NCBI GenBank assembly: GCA_913009205.1
Contig: CAJVYC010000001.1
Span: 310,001 to 374,000, forward strand
Origin: an uncultured Fluviicola sp.
Lineage (GTDB): Bacteria; Bacteroidota; Bacteroidia; Flavobacteriales_D; Crocinitomicaceae
Length of the DNA: 64,000 nucleotides
Direction of reading: 5' to 3'
The notes under the pieces are model-generated. The model was not told the DNA's origin. It saw only the letters and a list, made by a program, of their open reading frames with translations, and did not search any database. A program made the position numbers and the translations under genes. Positions 11,399 through 23,288 of the stretch are shown here, in pieces; within the stretch, counting starts at the first letter, position 1; each line of letters begins with the position of its first letter.

Positions 11399-12277
11399 TT
11401 ATTTTCCGTTTAGATCCATTGCGCGGAGGGTATTGATCATTAAAGATGCAATTGTCATTGGTCCAACGCCTCCAGGAACGGGAGTGATATACGAACATTT
11501 TGGAGCTACTTCATCAAATAGAACATCACCTTTCAATGCCCAACCATTCTTCTTAGATGCGTCCGATACGCGTGTGGTTCCAACGTCAACGATAACTGCT
11601 CCTTCTTTTACCATGTCGGCGGTCACAAATCCAGGAATTCCAATTGCTGCAATAATTATATCTGCTCTAGAGGCGATGTCTTTTAAGTTCTTCGTTCGAC
11701 TGTGCGCCAAAGTTACAGTGCAATTTCCAGGGTTTGAATTACGGCTTAGCATTATGCTCAATGGAGTTCCAACAATATTAGAACGACCAATAATCACACA
11801 ATCTTTTCCAGATGTTTGAATATTATTCCTTTTTAAAAGCTCCATTATTCCTGCTGGAGTTGCAGGCAAGAAACCGGGCAAACTCAAGACCATGTTACCA
11901 AGATTCATTGGATGGAATCCATCAACATCTTTCTTTGGATCGATCGCTTCTGTTACTTTCAACTCATCGATATGGTCTGGTAATGGGAGTTGAACTATAA
12001 ATCCATCAATGTTTTCGTCATTGTTTAATTCGTTCACTTTATTAAGTAGTTCCTCTTCGGTAACATCAGATTCATATTTTATTAATGAACTATCAAATCC
12101 AATATGATCACAAGCTTTTACTTTTGCATTTACGTAGGTCAATGATCCACCATCGCTTCCAACCAGCACTGCGGCCAAATGAGGAATTTTCTTTTCACCA
12201 TTTTTTCGGGACTCAACTGCTTTTCTCAGCTCTTCTCGAATTGCTTCTGCAGTTGCTCTTCCGTCTAATAATTGCAT
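11399..12277 (-). CDS. folD: Methylenetetrahydrofolate dehydrogenase / cyclohydrolase
   Basis: Bifunctional cytoplasmic enzyme interconverting methylene-THF, methenyl-THF and 10-formyl-THF with NADP+. Length 292 residues is normal. Visible motifs are the catalytic YVNAKVKAC (Tyr and Lys), [17 protein letters not shown], the glycine-rich nucleotide site [14 protein letters not shown], and the signature [14 protein letters not shown]. The frame extends to 12301, but that upstream TTG lies inside the TATCTTTG promoter box, so ATG 12277 is the start. A long antisense frame over this gene is a shadow. Confidence 0.95.
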
Positions 12278-12298
12278 ACAATAAATCTTTATTTTACT

Positions 12299-12306
12299 CA
12301 AAGATA
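12299..12306 (-). promoter_or_regulatory. -7 box of folD
   Basis: TATCTTTG on the minus strand, 21 bases before ATG 12277. It rules out the longer TTG start at 12301. Confidence 0.6.
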
Positions 12307-13032: not shown

Positions 13033-13995
13033 TTAAAACTGACCGTTTGGTGCAGCTTGTAACGTCATTATTTCCATTTCAAATTTCAATACCATGAATG
13101 GTTCAATTGGACCTCCTGGACGCGGAGTAGCTCCGTATGCCAATTCTTGAGGAATATAAACCTCAAATTTATCGCCTTTTTTCATCAATAGTAAAACCTC
13201 ATTCCAACCAGTAATAACTTGCGCTGGTAAAGTAAGAGGATACGGTTCATTTCTGTCATAAGAACTATCAAATTTAACACCATCCAAAGTTGTTCCAGTA
13301 TAGTGAACAGCTATTTGATCTCCCATTTTAGCCACCGACCCAGATCCTGCTTTCAATACTTTGTACTGCAGTCCAGAAGCAGTTGTAATAATACCTGGCT
13401 TTTTCGCGTTGTTCGATAAGAATTTTTCACCAGCGACTTTATTACCTCCAAATTGTGCTTCCTGTTCAGCCATCATTTTAGCTTGCATTTCTTGATCAAA
13501 AGCTTGGATTGTTGACTCGATTTCCTCTTCAGAAATAGCTGGATTCGTTCCTTTCAATCCCTCTTGAAACCCTTTAAAAAGAACTTCTTTATTAACTCTA
13601 TCTACTTCTGAAACGCTTTCCAATTGCATGTAAAATTGAGCAGCCATAAATCTTCCATAGCATTTAGACCCTTCTGACAAATACAATTCGTTGAAATCCA
13701 TTCCTCTTTGTCCAAAAAGGCTTTCCAAGGTTTGGTAACAAGGATCACTTTGATCTTGCCCAATTCCAGATGCGAATCCTTCTTTGTATCCCTCAAGAAT
13801 CTTATCTCTGTCTAATCGAGCTAAGTTTTCATTTTTTGAATCCGTTATCTTTCGTGACTCAAGGGCTCCAAATGAGTAAGACAATTTATCTTTTTCTGAT
13901 TTCACCTCAATCACTTTAACCTCCTCTGTTTTCACTTCATTATCTCCGCAGGCAAACAGCGCAAAGAATGGAAGAATAAATAAATAATTTTTCAT
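13033..13995 (-). CDS. FKBP-type peptidyl-prolyl isomerase lipoprotein
   Basis: A 320-residue envelope lipoprotein (signal MKNYLFILPFFALFAC, Cys16). Residues of about 35-190 form the helical FKBP N-terminal dimerisation domain typical of Mip/FkpA; the C-terminal 110 residues are the FKBP domain with SGLQYKVLKAGSG, VHYTGTTLDGVKFDSSYDR, VITGWNEVLLLMKKG and IPQELAYG. It would catalyse cis/trans proline isomerisation and chaperone folding of exported proteins. It overlaps the upstream cytoplasmic FKBP gene by one base (TAATG), so the pair is coupled. Confidence 0.92.
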   Translation of the reverse strand: MKNYLFILPFFALFACGDNEVKTEEVKVIEVKSEKDKLSYSFGALESRKITDSKNENLARLDRDKILEGYKEGFASGIGQDQSDPCYQTLESLFGQRGMDFNELYLSEGSKCYGRFMAAQFYMQLESVSEVDRVNKEVLFKGFQEGLKGTNPAISEEEIESTIQAFDQEMQAKMMAEQEAQFGGNKVAGEKFLSNNAKKPGIITTASGLQYKVLKAGSGSVAKMGDQIAVHYTGTTLDGVKFDSSYDRNEPYPLTLPAQVITGWNEVLLLMKKGDKFEVYIPQELAYGATPRPGGPIEPFMVLKFEMEIMTLQAAPNGQF

Positions 13996-14594
13996 TATGC
14001 TATTTCTAATAATTCAACATCAAATACCAATGCCATGTATGGCTCAATTGGTCCACCTGGGTGAGGAGTTGCTCCGTACGCCAAATCTTGTGGAATATAC
14101 AATCTGTATTTTGCTCCAGTAGGCATCAATTGAAGAGCTTCTGTCCAACCTGGAATAACTTGATTCACACCAAAACTAGCAGGTTCACCTCTTTCAACTG
14201 AGCTATCAAACACAGTTCCATCAGGCAAAGTGCCGTGATAATGAACAGTTACATTACTCGTTGGATCTGGCTTGTCACCACTTCCCGCTTCAATAACTTC
14301 ATATTGCAATCCAGAGTCAGTAATCTTGATTCCGTCTTTCTTTGCATTCTCAGCTAAGAAAGCTTCACTTACTGCTTTGTTTGCTCCGAATTTCTTTTCT
14401 CCTTCAGCATTCAAGAATTTTTGAATAATTCCGTTGGCCTCTTCTGGAGTATATTTCATTTCCTTACCAGCAAAAGCATCGTTGATGGCCTCAGCCAATA
14501 CCACTGTGTTAATTCCTTGTAAATTTTGTTGAAGTAAACTACCTCCTAAACTCATTCCTACGCAGTAACTAACTGCATCTAATTCTTCTGACAT
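13995..14594 (-). CDS. FKBP-type peptidyl-prolyl isomerase, cytoplasmic (FklB-like)
   Basis: A 199-residue FKBP without signal peptide, so cytoplasmic. A short FKBP N-domain (SYCVGMSLGGSL) precedes the catalytic domain: SGLQYEVIEAGSG, VHYHGTLPDGTVFDSS, VIPGWTEALQLMPTG, IPQDLAYG and PGGPIEPYMALVFDVELL. It is the first gene of a two-gene unit with the lipoprotein FKBP, giving one isomerase on each side of the membrane. A TATCTTTG promoter box at 14612-14619 supports ATG 14594 as start. Confidence 0.92.
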   Translation of the reverse strand: MSEELDAVSYCVGMSLGGSLLQQNLQGINTVVLAEAINDAFAGKEMKYTPEEANGIIQKFLNAEGEKKFGANKAVSEAFLAENAKKDGIKITDSGLQYEVIEAGSGDKPDPTSNVTVHYHGTLPDGTVFDSSVERGEPASFGVNQVIPGWTEALQLMPTGAKYRLYIPQDLAYGATPHPGGPIEPYMALVFDVELLEIA

Positions 14595-14752: not shown

Positions 14753-15670
14753 ATGACGATTAGTGGATTTACCATGGTACGAAATGCTGACAAGTATTAC
14801 TTTCCTATTAAAGAAGCAATCGAATCCGTGTTACCGATTGTGGATGAGTTTGTTGTAGCGCTAGGTAACAATGACGAAGGCGATAAAACGAGAGAACTTA
14901 TCGAATCCATCGGTTCGGATAAAGTTAAAATCATTGACCGTATTTGGTCGGAAAAAGAATTTGTTGACGGGGTGATTTTTGCGAATGAAACAACTTTTGC
15001 CATGTCGCAGTGTAGTGGAGATTGGTGTCTTTATCTGCAAGCGGATGAAGTAGTTCATGAAGAAGATTTGGATTCTATCGTTCAGCTATGCACAGACAAT
15101 TTAAACAATCCAGAAGTAGAAGGTCTGTTGTTCAATTATTACCATTTCTTTGGCGATTACAACCATCATTTACCTGTTCACGGCTGGGCCAAGAATGAGG
15201 TTCGTTTGGTTCGGAATAATATCGGTGTCTACTCTTATTTGGATGCTGTTTCCTTCCGGAAAAACAATAATGAAAAGCTAAACGTTATCAAAACTAACGC
15301 TACTGTTTATCATTATGGATGGGTTCGCCCGCCGCGCTTGATGCAATCCAAAAAGAAGGAACAAGATTCTATGCACCACGGAAAAGCGATAATTGATTAT
15401 GAATACAAATTAAAGCCCTATGAATTCGATTACGGTCCTTTAGGAAAAGTGCCGAAATTTGTTGGAACACATCCTAAAGCTATGGCGCCATTTATTGCGA
15501 AGATGAACTGGGAAGGTAAATTGAATTCGACAAAAAAAGGCGTTATTACTCGAGATAAAATGAAGCATGAGAAGGTGAAATACCGTGTAGTTACGTTTTT
15601 GGAGAACGCTTTAAATGGTGGGAGACAGTTTTTTGGGTATTCGAATTGGAATTTGATACGGAAGAAATAG
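14753..15670 (+). CDS. Glycosyltransferase family 2-like protein
   Basis: A 305-residue soluble protein with a GT-A type N-terminal half: MTISGFTMVRN, then EFVVALGNNDEGD, and the metal-binding-like segment DWCLYLQADEVVHEEDL near residues 85-101, in the place of the DxD motif. The rest is long and basic without membrane helices. It resembles family-2 transferases that act on lipopolysaccharide or surface glycans, but the sugar and acceptor cannot be inferred. It is a single gene: a SAM riboswitch on the other strand follows. The ATG at 14753 gives the usual family start. Confidence 0.75.
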   Translation: MTISGFTMVRNADKYYFPIKEAIESVLPIVDEFVVALGNNDEGDKTRELIESIGSDKVKIIDRIWSEKEFVDGVIFANETTFAMSQCSGDWCLYLQADEVVHEEDLDSIVQLCTDNLNNPEVEGLLFNYYHFFGDYNHHLPVHGWAKNEVRLVRNNIGVYSYLDAVSFRKNNNEKLNVIKTNATVYHYGWVRPPRLMQSKKKEQDSMHHGKAIIDYEYKLKPYEFDYGPLGKVPKFVGTHPKAMAPFIAKMNWEGKLNSTKKGVITRDKMKHEKVKYRVVTFLENALNGGRQFFGYSNWNLIRKK

Positions 15671-15794
15671 GTTTAAATTTTGAGTTATGGGTGAAGAATT
15701 GTGTGTACGGATGTGTTCGAAAGTCGTTTGCGACTTCGGAATTCATTCACGAATTATTTTGGTGACTATTTACATCAAGAACAGCACATTCGAT

Positions 15795-15884
15795 TTATGA
15801 GAAGGTGTTTCTCAATAAACTCATTGTGTGCAATTGCGGTTGAATTTGTCTATTTCCGGAAGATTGAACCTTAGTGTTTTTCAT
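15795..15884 (-). CDS. 29-residue ORF directly under a SAM riboswitch
   Basis: The ATG at 15884 lies nine bases after the 3' closing strand of the riboswitch, so its access is likely controlled by it. The peptide is polar and basic (MKNTKVQSSG start; LHTMSLLRNTFS end), with no signal peptide or membrane helix and no family recognised. It may be a leader peptide, a new small protein, or the surviving first codons of a lost methionine gene. Downstream there is only a hairpin (arms near 15719-15739) and then the 3' end of the convergent glycosyltransferase gene. Confidence 0.4.
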   Translation of the reverse strand: MKNTKVQSSGNRQIQPQLHTMSLLRNTFS

Positions 15885-15893
15885 ACTCTCAAA

Positions 15894-16028
15894 ATTTATA
15901 TTCACCCATCGAACGATTCGATTAGGAATCAGGAATCGGCACCGGTTTTCCAATCTCCGCCTTCGCATCGACTTTAGGTTGGTTGCCAGAGGGTCTTCGA
16001 GCCTGTCTCTCAGCTCTTCTTTATAAAT
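15894..16028 (-). ncRNA. SAM-I (S-box) riboswitch
   Basis: On the minus strand the core reads GAGAGACAGGCTCGAAGAC, CCTCTGGCAACC and, after a variable P3 arm, GGTGCCGATTCCTG; these are the conserved S-box elements (P2 with kink-turn, GGCAACC, and GGTGCnAATTCC). The closing P1 helix is ATTTATA (16022-16028) with TATAAAT (15894-15900), and a P4 hairpin ATCGAA/TTCGAT precedes its 3' strand. S-boxes bind S-adenosylmethionine and switch off methionine or SAM synthesis genes. Here no such gene follows: only a 29-codon ORF. Covariance search was not run. Confidence 0.85.
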
Positions 16029-16069
16029 CATGTTCCACAGTTGTGGTATATTGATGAGAACAAATGTTT

Positions 16070-16077
16070 TAAATTTG
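16070..16077 (+). promoter_or_regulatory. -7 box of the 138-residue membrane protein gene
   Basis: TAAATTTG, 41 bases before ATG 16119. It lies inside the longer upstream reading frame, arguing against a start at 16041. Confidence 0.45.
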
Positions 16078-16118
16078 TTTTCAATAAAAAAAGATTTTAC
16101 AGAAAAAAGATTTTAATT

Positions 16119-17305: not shown

Positions 17306-20248
17306 CTACTTACTATACATCGCATACATGGCCTCGATATCGAACTTTCGAGTCCCGACGAATTCGTTTTTAAGGTAGTCAAGTTTGGAGTCTTTTTCAA
17401 GAAGGTATAGATTTTTGACATCCATTTTGATTTGCGATTCAACGTTAATAGAAGCGGGGCCGTATTCAGGTTTCTTTCGGTATGCTGCAAATCCATATTC
17501 TGTATTTGAAATACTGATCTCTTCGACAGAAATAGTCGATAAATCTTTAGATGCGACTGCAATATAAGCGCCATCAATTGAACATCCATTCACCAATAAA
17601 TGAGAATTTTCACCTCCTGAAACTCCTTTATCTCCAACATTTTTAAAGGAGCAGTTTTCAATTAAGATATCACTTCCAGAAAAATCTAAACAATCATTTC
17701 CAGTATTTTGAAATTGAGACGCGATAACTCTTCCTTTGCAAAAATCACCATCAAAACCGTCCGAAGTTGTATTTGAAACCGATGAATTTTCCATAATAAA
17801 CTCGCATCGAACTAGGTTCAATCCATCTTCACAATTGTTGTTGTCAAAGCTGCAGTTCATAATGAGTGCTTCTCCTTGATAGATTGTCACGGCGCCCGTT
17901 AATTTCCAAAACTCCTTGTTCAATGAACTCAAATTGGAGAACTGAACGTACTTCATAATTGAGATACCATTTTTAGTCAAAACATTGAATCCATTAGCAC
18001 TTTTATCAGACGAAGTAACTTGGATTGGATTTCCAGCTTTGCCTCCCATTAAAACGGGTGAATATGAAATAAAAGCAGCACTATTGATTAAATTCAATCG
18101 AACCCCAGCCTTAAAAACAATGAATTTATCTTTAGGGAAAACAACATCTTTTGAAACTGAATAACTTCCGCTTTTCAATACCAAACTATCGCCAACTTCT
18201 TTAAATGGCAACTGACTATAGTCTGCGGCGACAGGAATTTCAATTCGGTCGATTGGGCTCCATTTACTCAACTTCCCAAAGAAGAGTTCGTCGTTGCAAT
18301 TTGCCGCACGATACACAAAAGAATATGGCTTCTCCGTCAAAGTTATCGTTGTTTGATTCAAAGGCCATTTATATTCCTTCATTCGAATGGGTTGTTTCAG
18401 ATTGATTATTTTCTTCTTATCCATCTTTAGTGTGTATCCAATAATCTCAATGCCGTAAGAGTGAAAATTATTCAGTTGAATATCACAAAAAAATGAATCT
18501 TTCTTAATAATATAAGCTTTAAGCGAAACATCCTTATATAACTCACCTTGAGGCAGTTTATTAAACACTACTTGACCTTTAAAGAATTCCTTTGGTGTCG
18601 ACAAACGTTTCGTTTCAAATTCAGGAATGGACGTCCTAATTTGTGTGCAATTCGATACAAAAAACTCCTTATCGAATTTATAAAACGGATATTCATGCTC
18701 AAGCAATTGTTCCATTTTATTGATTTCAACATTCAAATCATTAAAGACATTCCGCAAGTAATTTGGATTGGAAAACTGTTTGAGATACTTCAAATAAAGT
18801 TCGTTTACCTCCGGATTGGATAACAAGGCCTCAGTCGTGTTGTACGAATTCTTTGACGTCCAACCCGTTCCAACCGTTACAACATCTTTCGACATTTGAT
18901 CTAGACTTGTAAAACAATCAAATGCAATAGGCTCCAGCCGACTTGTGACGGGGTTCATATAATAGCGCTGATTGTGCCAAATCAAACCGTGTTTGGCGTT
19001 TAAAATGTCCGTTAAGGCCAAATAGCGCGCTACAATATCGACATCCAGATAACCGTCGACATCAATATCGTGATTTCTAAGACGGTGCATGTGACTTTGA
19101 GCCACATTGAACTGCATCTTTAAGTTGGGATTCTTCTTCGTTCGGTTTTTCTTAAATGGATTGATTTCCGCAGCCAATAGCGTTGGAATGTGAAAGGCTT
19201 TACCTCCGTTCAGTTCTGCCAAATGCTGTTTCCAAACACCGTTTTCGTCGAACTTGACAATTGGACCTTCACGTCGGTTTCTACTCTCAAGAAGTTGCTT
19301 GTCAAAATGTTCTTCAAGTGCATAAACGCCTTTCTTTTCGCCATTGATAATGACGGGGATAAACGTATAGCGTGTTGTTAGAACATCTTCTTTTTCGAGA
19401 AGCTTGTGACCAAACCACTCCATCATGAAGGACCTTGTAGAAGGGTTTTGGATAGAAAAGGTTTTGAGTCCTTTGTAAGCGTGGTCATCTCCCATTTTTA
19501 TTCTAAACGACCATTTATCCGTCTTTAAATGATCCGTCCAATCTCCTTTAAATCGAATTTCAATAGGAACAAATTTACCATTGACATTTAGTTTTGCTGA
19601 GAAATAAGACTTCATTTTACTTGTGATCATTCCTTTCTTTAGCGCCTTGCTTCGAAGAATTCTCAACGAATCCATTGTCATAAAATCGATCTCCAATTCG
19701 AGTGCATTATCCGTCATTTTTGGAATTGAGTGCTTGAAATAACCACTGATTTTGAAGTCATCAAAGTAGGTCTTGACCTTGTTCTCATTTCTAATATAGA
19801 TGATCAGTTTCTCAAAATCTTTATGGGCAATGAAGTTCATTTCAATCAATCCCCAATTGCCTTCTCTGTCAATGATTGTGGAATTCTCTTCATACAAATC
19901 GCCTGAAGCGTCGTTACCAGAAATGATAATTGATCCAGCGCCATAGCCAATGTTTCTCCAAACAGAAACAACGAAAGCATCCCCTTTTTCAACGCCTTCT
20001 AAATTTATTCCAAATCCATTTGGTGTTTTTGTATTCAAAGCAAGGCTGTACTGTCCGTTTCTGGCCATTTTAGAGGATCGAAGATCTCCCCCAGTCAACC
20101 TGTATTTACCCGAAGTAAATTCGTCTTCATCAACTTTTTCTGCACCCGATGAAATTTTTAATGAATCGATCCCGTCAATAGAAACCGCATCTGAACAGGA
20201 TGAAATTAATCCGGCTAAAACACCCGTGATCCAAAGAATTTTTTTCAT
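17306..20248 (-). CDS. Large lipoprotein: CotH kinase-like domain plus right-handed beta-helix (copy A)
   Basis: A 980-residue lipoprotein (lipobox ISSC, Cys18). Order: carbohydrate-binding-like beta-sandwich (about 40-170, ending VKTYFDDFKISGY); CotH-like domain (about 215-450) with IEIRFKGDWTDHL, KTFSIQNPSTRSFM, GVYALEEHFDKQLL, REGPIVKFDE and LEPIAFDCF; a beta-sandwich segment; and from about 700 a parallel beta-helix with FDNNNCEDGLNL, NTGNDCLDFSGS and GDKGVSGGENS. The aspartate of IAFDCF stands where canonical CotH has WDYD, so the metal site is altered. It starts nine bases after the stop of its paralogue (copy B) and is surely cotranscribed. Function unknown; surface protein phosphorylation or glycan binding are possible. 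Confidence 0.8.
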   Translation of the reverse strand: MKKILWITGVLAGLISSCSDAVSIDGIDSLKISSGAEKVDEDEFTSGKYRLTGGDLRSSKMARNGQYSLALNTKTPNGFGINLEGVEKGDAFVVSVWRNIGYGAGSIIISGNDASGDLYEENSTIIDREGNWGLIEMNFIAHKDFEKLIIYIRNENKVKTYFDDFKISGYFKHSIPKMTDNALELEIDFMTMDSLRILRSKALKKGMITSKMKSYFSAKLNVNGKFVPIEIRFKGDWTDHLKTDKWSFRIKMGDDHAYKGLKTFSIQNPSTRSFMMEWFGHKLLEKEDVLTTRYTFIPVIINGEKKGVYALEEHFDKQLLESRNRREGPIVKFDENGVWKQHLAELNGGKAFHIPTLLAAEINPFKKNRTKKNPNLKMQFNVAQSHMHRLRNHDIDVDGYLDVDIVARYLALTDILNAKHGLIWHNQRYYMNPVTSRLEPIAFDCFTSLDQMSKDVVTVGTGWTSKNSYNTTEALLSNPEVNELYLKYLKQFSNPNYLRNVFNDLNVEINKMEQLLEHEYPFYKFDKEFFVSNCTQIRTSIPEFETKRLSTPKEFFKGQVVFNKLPQGELYKDVSLKAYIIKKDSFFCDIQLNNFHSYGIEIIGYTLKMDKKKIINLKQPIRMKEYKWPLNQTTITLTEKPYSFVYRAANCNDELFFGKLSKWSPIDRIEIPVAADYSQLPFKEVGDSLVLKSGSYSVSKDVVFPKDKFIVFKAGVRLNLINSAAFISYSPVLMGGKAGNPIQVTSSDKSANGFNVLTKNGISIMKYVQFSNLSSLNKEFWKLTGAVTIYQGEALIMNCSFDNNNCEDGLNLVRCEFIMENSSVSNTTSDGFDGDFCKGRVIASQFQNTGNDCLDFSGSDILIENCSFKNVGDKGVSGGENSHLLVNGCSIDGAYIAVASKDLSTISVEEISISNTEYGFAAYRKKPEYGPASINVESQIKMDVKNLYLLEKDSKLDYLKNEFVGTRKFDIEAMYAMYSK

Positions 20249-20256
20249 ATTACAGA

Positions 20257-23178
20257 TTACTTTGTGTAGACCATGTACATGGAGTCAATATCGAATTTCT
20301 TCTCTCCGACATAGCTTTTATTCAAGTAAATAAGCTCAGATCCTTTTTCGAGGAGTTTTAGATTTTCAGCGTCCATTTTTTTAATGGAAATCACTTCAAT
20401 TCGAGCAGGCCCGTATTCAGGTTTCTTGCGGTAACAAGCAAATCCATACTTAGAATTTTTGACACTGATACTATCAATGTAAACTACAGTTAAATCTTTA
20501 GCGGCCAAGGCAATGTACGAACCGTCTATTGAACAATTTGAGACACGTAACTCGGATCCTTCTCCGCCTGAGACCCCTTTGTCTCCTGCGTTTTTAATAG
20601 AACAATTGTCAATTTTAATTATACTTCCAGAGAAGTCAAGACAATCATTTCCAGTATTGGAAAAAGAAGAATTGGAAACTTTACCATGACAAAAATCGGC
20701 ATCGAAACCATCGGAATAAGCGTCGGAAATTGTTGAATTCTGCACTGTGAATTCGCAACGAATCAAATTCAATCCGTCTTCACAATTGTTATTTAAGAAT
20801 TCACAATTATCAATCGAAACCTTTCCTCCATAAAACGTTACTGCACCTGTTAAAGTCCAGCCGTTTTTATTCATCGTATTTAAATTATCGAAAATCGCAT
20901 AGTTAATTTTTGAAGCATCATCAGAAATCACCACAAATCCATTTGCCGTTCCGTCCGGTGATGAAATAAGAACTGGATTTTCTTTCGTTCCTCGAATATC
21001 TAAAGGTGAATACGAAACAATCGATGCATTATTTACAAGTTCAATTTTTGCTCCTGCTTCAATCACCAGCTTATAACCACTCGGAACCTGCATGTCATCT
21101 TTGAAAATATTTTTCCCACTCAAAACAACTTCTTTGCTTCCTTTTACTGGAATTCGAATATACGCCATTTTATCTAAAAACTGAGGTTGTTTTGCCACTC
21201 CCCATTTCTCGATTCCCGCTTTAAATTCGGTAGCACCACAATTCTTTGCACGGTAATGAATGCGTCTTGGTTTTTCTTTCAATTTTATAAACTGCGGCTT
21301 TGCGTTCGATTCATAAGCTTTCAAGGTTGTCTTTGGCATCGGCACAATGACTTTCTTGTTCGCTTTGGTCGAGTAACCGATAATTTCAAGATCAGCCGAA
21401 TGGAAGTTTCGAAATGAAATTGTAACACTTCCATCTTCTCTCTTTTCGTCCAGATTTACTTTCAAGGCTATATCCGTAAAGATTATATTCTCAGGCAATA
21501 CTGCGAAAGGTATCATTTCTTCACTTTCCACATTCGGATTCTTACGATGCTCGGCGTATTCTGGAAGTTGTTCCCTAACTTGTTTTGCGTTATTTCTAAA
21601 AAACTGCTTGTTGAGTTTTATATTTGGATACTCAAAACTCAACAATGTTTCGGCTGCCTTAATTTCCTCTTTCAATTCACTAAAAAGGGCATCGACGTAA
21701 TTCTCACTTGAGAATTCCTTTAAGTATTCAAAATATTTTTCTTCTACTTTCGGATTCGATAGCGCCGCCTCTATTAACGTGAAATTCTGTTTACGGCTTC
21801 GATCCAAACCTTCAATATCAACTTTCGTTTGAATGAGGTTGGGAGCCATAAAGCAATCATAAGCAATTGGCTCTAACTTAATCGTTACGGGATTAAAGTA
21901 ATTTCTTTGATTGTGCCAGATTAAGCCGTGCTTTCCATTAATGACATCGCTTAAGGCAATAAATTTGGCCAACGATTCCACATCGAAATAATCATCTACG
22001 TCTGTGTCGTGATTTCGATACCGTTCCATTTGACCTTTGGCGGTATTGAATTGCTTCGTTAAAGCTTCCGATTTATTCGTTCGGTTCTTTTTAAATGGTG
22101 TTACCTCCGCGGACTTAAATGCTGGAACTTTGTAATATTTGTGTTCGTTCTTTTCCATGTAATGCAGCTGCCAAATTCCACTTTCATCAAACTTAACAAT
22201 TGGGCCTTCTCTTCTTTTTCGGTATTCCAAAAGTTGCTTATCGAAGTGTTCTTCAAGCGCATAAACACCCATTTTCTTGCCATTAATTATGATAGGAACA
22301 AAAATATAACGCGTCGTCAAAACATCTTCGTTTTCATACATCCTATGCGCAAACCATTCCAACATAAATGAGCGTGTATGTGGATTCTGAATAGAGAAGG
22401 TCTTCATTCCTTGATAGGCATTATCTCCACCTATCTTGATTCTAAATGACCATTTATTTGTTTCTAAGTGGTCCGTCCAATCGCCCTTTAAACGAAGTTC
22501 AATTGGAATTTTCTTTCCTCCAACTGTTAAGTTTGCATCAACGTATTCCTTTAACTCTTTTGTAATTACGCCTTGCTCCAAAGCTGTCTTTCTAAACTCC
22601 GTCAAGGTAGTATATGCCGAACTATTGATGTTGATTTCAAGAGCCTCGTGAGAATCATCAGGTTTTGAATTATTCAAATATCCTTTGATTTTGATATCAT
22701 CAAAGTATGTCGGAATTGCTTCTGCGTTTAAAGCATAAATCAGAACTCTTTTATAGTCTTGTTCAGCAACGAAAAAAGATTCAATTTTCCCCCACTCACC
22801 TTGTTCTTCAATGAACATTTGATTGAATTCATATTGATTTTGAGGCTCTTCTCCAGAAATGACCAACCCGCCGGTCTTTCCACTTAAATGTTTCCAAACT
22901 GAGGCTTCGATTATGTCTCCTTTTTTAACATTCTTGACTTCATAGGTAAATCCATACGGGGAATCTTTGTTCAGTTTAACAGAATGCTTGCCGCTTCTTG
23001 CATGATCCGTGGATTGAGATTGCCCACCTCTAAACTCCACATTTGCAGAAATAAAATTGGCTCCTTTTAATTTTTCGGCATCACAAGAAACCGAAAGTGT
23101 ATTATTCACTTCCCCCTCCTTTTCCGAAGAACAGGCGATAAGGAGCAATAGCGCGAAGGTGTATAAACAATATTTCAT
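20257..23178 (-). CDS. Large lipoprotein: CotH kinase-like domain plus right-handed beta-helix (copy B)
   Basis: A 973-residue paralogue of the next gene with the same domain order: lipoprotein signal (MKYCLYTFALLLLIAC, Cys16), N-terminal beta-sandwich ending TYFDDIKIKGY, CotH-like domain (IELRLKGDWTDHLETNKW, GVYALEEHFDKQLL, LEPIAYDCF), beta-sandwich, and beta-helix (NNNCEDGLNLIRCEF, NTGNDCLDFSG, GDKGVSGGEGS). The frame is open to 23244, but ATG 23178 starts the lipoprotein signal and lies after a TATTTTTG promoter box. It is first of the two-gene unit. Long identical stretches between copies show a tandem duplication that has since diverged over its whole length. Confidence 0.8.
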   Translation of the reverse strand: MKYCLYTFALLLLIACSSEKEGEVNNTLSVSCDAEKLKGANFISANVEFRGGQSQSTDHARSGKHSVKLNKDSPYGFTYEVKNVKKGDIIEASVWKHLSGKTGGLVISGEEPQNQYEFNQMFIEEQGEWGKIESFFVAEQDYKRVLIYALNAEAIPTYFDDIKIKGYLNNSKPDDSHEALEININSSAYTTLTEFRKTALEQGVITKELKEYVDANLTVGGKKIPIELRLKGDWTDHLETNKWSFRIKIGGDNAYQGMKTFSIQNPHTRSFMLEWFAHRMYENEDVLTTRYIFVPIIINGKKMGVYALEEHFDKQLLEYRKRREGPIVKFDESGIWQLHYMEKNEHKYYKVPAFKSAEVTPFKKNRTNKSEALTKQFNTAKGQMERYRNHDTDVDDYFDVESLAKFIALSDVINGKHGLIWHNQRNYFNPVTIKLEPIAYDCFMAPNLIQTKVDIEGLDRSRKQNFTLIEAALSNPKVEEKYFEYLKEFSSENYVDALFSELKEEIKAAETLLSFEYPNIKLNKQFFRNNAKQVREQLPEYAEHRKNPNVESEEMIPFAVLPENIIFTDIALKVNLDEKREDGSVTISFRNFHSADLEIIGYSTKANKKVIVPMPKTTLKAYESNAKPQFIKLKEKPRRIHYRAKNCGATEFKAGIEKWGVAKQPQFLDKMAYIRIPVKGSKEVVLSGKNIFKDDMQVPSGYKLVIEAGAKIELVNNASIVSYSPLDIRGTKENPVLISSPDGTANGFVVISDDASKINYAIFDNLNTMNKNGWTLTGAVTFYGGKVSIDNCEFLNNNCEDGLNLIRCEFTVQNSTISDAYSDGFDADFCHGKVSNSSFSNTGNDCLDFSGSIIKIDNCSIKNAGDKGVSGGEGSELRVSNCSIDGSYIALAAKDLTVVYIDSISVKNSKYGFACYRKKPEYGPARIEVISIKKMDAENLKLLEKGSELIYLNKSYVGEKKFDIDSMYMVYTK

Positions 23179-23186
23179 ATAAGCAG

Positions 23187-23194
23187 CAAAAATA
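23187..23194 (-). promoter_or_regulatory. -7 box of the tandem CotH/beta-helix genes
   Basis: TATTTTTG on the minus strand, eight bases before ATG 23178. No -33 TTG at the usual distance. Confidence 0.45.
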
Positions 23195-23288
23195 ATACAA
23201 TTCACATCACCATTTTCATTTAAAAGCATCGATCTGAAGTTCATTATAAAAAGAGGTTCGCAACAGAATAATTTTTACTTTTAGGATT

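Follow-up and report, generated by a model that had tools for sequence, protein, structure and literature searches.

SAM-I riboswitches and amino-acid-coding leaders are each well known. In mycobacteria, polycysteine leader attenuators control sulphur genes through consecutive Cys codons in a short ORF that has a leaderless start. The unit considered here, found intact in relatives of our locus, consists of a SAM-I aptamer, a short ORF with a Cys- and Met-rich tail, and metX, metY or hom; it differs from the mycobacterial leaders, which belong to another phylum, start leaderless and are not known to be preceded by a SAM-I aptamer. The attenuator candidate uORFC-8-2, which stands before cysS in Rhodobacterales, contains Cys codons, and ribosome-mediated attenuation has been proposed for it (PMC8632094). 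It shares with the intact unit a short ORF with Cys codons in the 5' leader, but its two Cys codons usually stand at positions 14-15, it has an intrinsic terminator, it belongs to another phylum and another gene, and no riboswitch is described for it. The ppe2 leader of Mycobacterium tuberculosis has a B12 riboswitch that controls a uORF whose translation is needed by the downstream gene (PMC11260477). A riboswitch-controlled uORF would be common to both systems, but in ppe2 the stop and start codons overlap and coupling is tight, whereas 54-428 nt separate the leader stop from the gene in the intact unit; coupling must therefore work otherwise there. No report of a SAM-I riboswitch combined with a Cys leader was found in the one open-licence library searched, which we count as weak evidence of novelty. 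The orphan described below is, in our view, an ordinary relic within a known family; the interesting and apparently new part is the intact pair of aptamer and leader, with the mechanism proposed for it.

The window, that is the whole 64-kb stretch of DNA analysed (genome G000), contains a single Rfam match at the gathering threshold (cmscan). This minus-strand match to the SAM-I family (RF00162) spans the full model (1-108) and scores 52.4 bits (E 3.3e-9), against a gathering cut-off of 44.4 bits (Table 1). The sequence-only reading had placed an S-box on this strand; the score bears this out, the motifs and P1 helix that it quoted are found in the sequence, and the lack of a significant SAM-I match, which it had named as grounds for giving up the idea, is not what Rfam returned. 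The copy has the P1-P4 layout of the family, and its GGCAACC and GGTGCC motifs, which we take to be the SAM contacts in SAM-I, are intact. Unlike SAM-I aptamers in their usual 5' UTR position, it has no SAM or methionine gene downstream, and it carries changes in one P2 pair and at one near-universal A; a further difference from the family at large is that the intact relatives place a Cys/Met leader between aptamer and gene. A second SAM-I aptamer in the same genome (C4:137090-137202, 75.2 bits) precedes a metH-type gene. An overlapping frame of 78 codons (15795-16031) that covers the aptamer was taken as chance; the related genome G003 has a stop in the same frame.

Table 1. Features of the orphan SAM-I locus and its surroundings, in window coordinates.
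Feature	Coordinates	Strand	Basis
folD-like gene, next 3' neighbour	11399..12301	-	named by resemblance
FKBP-type isomerase 2, 3' neighbour	13033..13995	-	ORF list and domain match
FKBP-type isomerase 1	13995..14594	-	neighbour comparison
Glycosyltransferase-2-like gene, now occupying the place of the operon	14753..15670	+	Pfam resemblance below cut-off
End of DNA homology to G003, putative edge of the metX-hom deletion	15716..15717		alignment
Hairpin after the leader	15717..15739	-	kept in window and G003 with changed pairs; pairing by eye from alignment
Out-of-frame remnant of the Cys tail, INRMCCS*CK* (G003: MHRMWCCCCK*)	15766..15798	-	alignment to G003
29-codon ORF, truncated leader-peptide remnant	15795..15884	-	alignment to G003
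SAM-I aptamer (RF00162), probable relic	15893..16029	-	cmscan; core-column comparison
Short inverted repeat CCACAACTGTGG directly 5' of the aptamer	16035..16046	-	by eye from alignment
Conserved block AAACAAATTTAAAACATTTG upstream of the aptamer	16061..16080	-	conservation, by eye
Divergent gene U, 138 aa	16119..16535	+	gene-neighbour comparison

SAM-I aptamers are present in 50 of 60 related genomes. Within the genus most copies are of two kinds, a shorter one in front of metH and a longer one of about 120-150 nt like that of the window, and 31 stretches, mostly with the long type, were retrieved and their surroundings compared. The typical layout in the genus is a long SAM-I aptamer, an ORF of about 30-50 codons that starts some 8 nt after P1, and then metX and hom; in G008 these are followed further downstream by a gene for a PLP enzyme of the Cys/Met family, then by two FKBP genes and one that is folD-like. 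Both aptamer and metX are present in 16 genus genomes. In 13 of these, no more than about 200 nt separate gene U from the aptamer (the distance is 1.5 kb in G004, and U has no match in G018 and G030); in 12, FKBP 1 is on the contig of the aptamer, 4-10 kb downstream of it (no FKBP match in G003 and G032; another contig in G004 and G009). An ORF similar to the folD-like gene follows FKBP in G008 (L079) and G006 (L058). With U on one side of the window aptamer and the FKBP-FKBP-folD series on the other, the locus is therefore the place of metX. Upstream of it, the window has two tandem minus-strand ORFs of 980 and 995 residues (17306-20248 and 20257-23244) that look like paralogues; G015, G020, G025 and G017 also have ORFs upstream of the metX place whose C-terminus is similar.

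The operon itself is missing from G000, a genome with a stated completeness of 99.2%, in which no match to metX and no homoserine dehydrogenase gene (hom) was found. For comparison, hom is present in 18 of the 34 genus genomes and metX has matches in 19, of which 16 are near full length (the others being a partial match at a contig end in G009, fragments in G012 and a 35% relative elsewhere in G029). In the MetH tree (30 rows, 28 from the genus and two from outside, the chosen outgroup not falling on one side of a branch), G000 is sister to the metX-bearing G003 with support of 98/87; an rpoB tree was set aside, as only 28 of the 34 genomes matched and the piece from G000 was partial and badly aligned, with an end branch of about 10. 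DNA homology between the window and G003, at 78%, runs unbroken through U, the aptamer, the leader and the post-leader hairpin, and then ends sharply at 15716. G003 is 79% complete and has no FKBP match, so that its 3' side is not comparable with that of the window. We conclude that the window aptamer is very probably (about 85%) a recently orphaned riboswitch, orphaned because its operon is gone; it would once have headed a metX-hom operon that also carried, downstream, a gene for a PLP enzyme of the Cys/Met family. Loss of the target gene had been among the options offered in the sequence-only reading, and synteny, the sharp end of homology and the lack of metX and hom in G000 strongly support it. 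That reading had also named, as a finding that would count against it, a methionine gene in related genomes that is cut off within this stretch by misassembly. Relatives do have a methionine gene here; a deletion fits best, however, and not an artefact of assembly. G000 is an assembly of 37 contigs, and the riboswitch end of a metX operon could have been joined to an unrelated contig, but the expected FKBP genes are present on the far side, metX and hom were found nowhere in the assembly, the same place has lost the operon in other genomes, and both aptamer and leader carry lesions; we consider such a false join very improbable.

The 29-codon ORF begins 8 bases past the Rfam end of the aptamer. 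In alignment with the leader of G003, a 1-nt gap shifts the reading frame of the window copy and a TGA stands inside the former Cys run; the ORF is the front part of this broken leader peptide. The suggestion of a true leader peptide thus holds for its origin, as relatives carry a Cys/Met-rich leader at this place, but not for its present state, with a frameshift and a stop in the Cys run; the idea that the riboswitch controls only a 29-codon ORF is not supported. A real small protein under SAM regulation would agree with the conserved place of the ATG and with the similarity of the N-terminus to that of G003 (MKNARIQSSGNRQ against MKNTKVQSSGNRQ). What relatives conserve, however, is the Cys/Met tail, which the window ORF does not have, while the remainder of the peptide varies freely among them; a functional small protein was rejected on the frame broken relative to G003 and the lack of an NCBIfam match for the window ORF, and we give it hardly any credence.

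The aptamer of the orphaned riboswitch departs from the genus pattern at three of the 83 columns that are invariant in the 16 genus aptamers from genomes keeping metX: a C at 16013, which breaks a P2 pair, a C at 15977 (T to C) and a G at 15937. The last position is A in 96 of 97 scanned aptamers and G in the window, in a tally that includes the window itself and a scan whose pattern allowed only A or G there. Intact copies of the genus, each left out in turn, differ at 0-2 of the 83 columns, and the excess in the window is modest (P about 0.02, in a simple Poisson model that ignores relatedness). These core departures make a functional SAM-I less probable for the window copy; its assignment to SAM-I by descent stands. 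Outside the genus, aptamers in front of metX or metY differ at 2 (G034), 2 (G035) and 16 (G036) columns, and departure from the genus pattern alone therefore does not prove decay. It also speaks against decay that the window aptamer is still very good and that the post-leader hairpin is still paired. Divergence at four-fold sites between G000 and G003 is 1.08 per site for MetH (131 sites) and 0.82 for gene U (34 sites). With half of this divergence assigned to each branch, an aptamer free of constraint from the split onwards would be expected to show changes at about 26-30 of the 83 columns on the G000 side. Only three changes are seen; therefore, the loss is recent or some constraint remains.

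Remaining constraint would be expected of an orphan RNA that still responds to SAM and acts either by read-through, antisense to the 3' end of the convergent glycosyltransferase gene, or in trans as a small RNA; SAM riboswitch RNAs in Listeria reportedly have a trans role. The low count of core changes, the intact SAM-contact motifs and the intact conserved block upstream, which is probably the promoter of the lost operon, agree with a working RNA of this kind. Against it, one P2 pair is broken, the near-universal A is altered, the leader is broken, and a recent deletion accounts equally well for the low divergence; no terminator was found downstream of aptamer and leader in the window, which is neutral in this respect. 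The inverted repeat between this block and the aptamer has similar counterparts in several genus copies, with other but pairing letters (CCAC..GTGG in G015 and CCAT..ATGG in G008, by eye). As for the supposed partner, a convergent gene does end at this place, as had been noted, but its resemblance to glycosyltransferase family 2 lies below the Pfam cut-off. Its closest relatives (65-70%, in G022, G008, G028, G012, G006 and G016) are on contigs other than those of the FKBP genes, which also counts against a function of the RNA directed at it. In the metX-less G026, a 40% relative lies just upstream of FKBP in opposite orientation (L203/L074, G026:C4), the FKBP is the most similar to that of the window (86%), and no riboswitch was detected. 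This arrangement counts against a simple story in which the glycosyltransferase gene moved in, and one event or two may have been involved. Positive evidence for an antisense or trans-acting RNA is thus lacking, and we regard it as unlikely, with a slim chance of being right.

Several other genomes show the place of the metX-hom operon after its loss. On the MetH tree the distribution of metX needs seven changes, at least three of which are forced by well-supported branches. The aptamers of G012 and G016 and the second copy in G028, none of which precedes an intact metX, differ at 0 of the 83 columns: in G012 the intact aptamer is accompanied by pieces of metX and the PLP gene, and in G016 it stands before a different gene. 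The G006 aptamer differs at 15 of 83 columns, in a genome that is only 82% complete; G016 also has a second, poor match, which differs at 25. G007 has kept a scrap of the 5' part of the aptamer (nhmmer E 8e-4) and scraps of the PLP gene, G013, G019, G031 and G033 have an unrelated gene between U and FKBP, and only 42 nt (G021) and 115 nt (G029) are left in two further genomes. The unrelated gene is similar in the four metX-less genomes concerned (L066, L067, L068 and L071 in G013, G031, G033 and G019, respectively). The unchanged aptamer in G016 (L052, G016:C30:93452-93590) has no leader ATG at the usual place, and the next gene starts signal-like and is followed by FKBP. The second long-type SAM-I in G028 (L055, G028:C15:6235-6372) has a leader-like ORF and precedes a membrane protein, the C-terminal part of which looks, by eye, like an AraC-type regulator; this may be a new target acquired by duplication.

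The intact unit was followed beyond the genus by scanning named MetX loci, the best 80 of 574 (from Pedobacter, Mucilaginibacter, Hymenobacter, Adhaeribacter, Olivibacter and many MAGs), together with the loci fetched earlier; after filtering, 97 distinct aptamers were scanned. From these best 80 of 574, 18 had no match to the aptamer pattern (at least one of them, L103, does contain SAM-I according to Rfam), eight were dropped with aptamer letters equal to those of another row (four of them being the genus genomes G022, G008, G030 and G018), four failed the AAGA filter (L098, L106, L125 and L145, each with a Cys-rich short ORF) and 50 were used, 45 of which have at least three Cys. Rfam recognised SAM-I in nine of 11 named loci tested, the others being L141 and L147. 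Where metX, metY or hom follows, the first short ORF contains at least three Cys at 56 of 66 loci, and where metH follows at 0 of 25, with gene classes assigned by pattern in the first 40 residues and many rows coming from related species, so that the counts are not independent. In 100 rounds of shuffling, the number corresponding to the 56 of 66 averaged 2.9 and never exceeded 9. The first-ORF rule missed the right ATG at two or more loci, among them L042 and L137, and 56 of 66 is therefore probably an undercount. Two loci with Cys leaders (L053 and L095) were left uncounted, as neither has a gene of 100 codons within reach; three loci classed as other (L052, L055 and L135) have fewer than three Cys or no ORF.

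Runs of at least three TGY codons are in frame with the first ATG at 35 of 43 loci and out of frame at eight; a further 23 loci have no such run. Cys and Met are concentrated in the leader tail: the last 12 residues contain 280 Cys and 113 Met in 732, against 29 and 18 in 1562 for earlier residues (61 leaders with a length of 20-60 codons, chosen without regard to Cys). NCBIfam gave no convincing match for six leaders or for the ORF of L147 (one leader had two insignificant matches to FliQ). The leader AUG lies 31-60 nt after the aptamer motif, and 37-45 nt after it in 46 of 56 loci. In L043 and L123, which have no leader, the AUG of metX itself stands 44-45 nt after the motif; this match to the leader-AUG distance points to an action of SAM-I on translation start at the AUG just after P1. 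Other combinations were also seen. L158 (Sphingobacterium detergens) has a leader after SAM-I with a Met-rich tail, SMRMRMHMH, and a single Cys, possibly reflecting a shift in codon specificity. L141 (a Kapabacterium MAG, 3.1 kb upstream of metX) and L147 (an Ignavibacteria MAG, 1.7 kb upstream) have short ORFs (...MMQMCMMMCCCM...) in which Met and Cys codons occur together, with no SAM-I match.

Folding of 46 gaps between leader and gene (up to 160 nt) gave a mean z of -1.4, a tendency towards structure, with some values near or above 0. By alifold, two hairpins were found in 11 loci of the Pedobacter group and one in 13 loci of the Mucilaginibacter group; a common gap fold was not found in 15 loci of the genus (RNAalifold energy 0). 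In most Pedobacter-group loci (L101, L105, L117-L120, L131, L133, L140, L143 and L163), inspection by eye and single folds show a CTTCC...GGAAGG pairing in the gap between leader and metY, followed by CCC...GGG, as well as a hairpin formed by the Cys codons themselves; these are candidate switch elements.

We propose that the intact unit would work as follows. The order of parts, as seen in relatives, is a SAM-I aptamer, a leader AUG about 8 nt after P1, an often hairpin-rich gap, and metX with hom (metY or hom in other taxa). Translation in Bacteroidota generally starts without strong Shine-Dalgarno sites. Binding of SAM would stabilise P1 and block initiation at the AUG right after it; at low SAM the leader would be translated. 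Passage of the ribosome through the Cys and Met codons, slow when the tRNAs are uncharged, would then set the fold of the gap and with it the expression of metX or metY. Attenuation through the leader is suggested by layout and codon content. That metX, metY and hom operons across Bacteroidota are under such a two-part regulator, with SAM-I gating initiation of the leader and the Cys/Met tail of the leader reading tRNA charging, seems to us an evenly balanced proposition. In the window no target is left, and the RNA most likely does nothing.

The window thus offers an example of the death of a riboswitch, and several stages of decay after gene loss can be read in its sister species. The lineage of G000 would be without homoserine-derived methionine, and probably threonine, by the usual route. 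Some lineages appear to have only one part of the regulator, either metX directly after SAM-I (L043 and L123) or a Met/Cys-rich leader with no SAM-I detected (L141 and L147). If the proposed mechanism is true, a single 5' UTR integrates both sulphur amino acids and SAM, the end product, and a metabolite riboswitch placed directly before a leader rich in codons of the same pathway would allow two-input control to be tested within a single mRNA leader.
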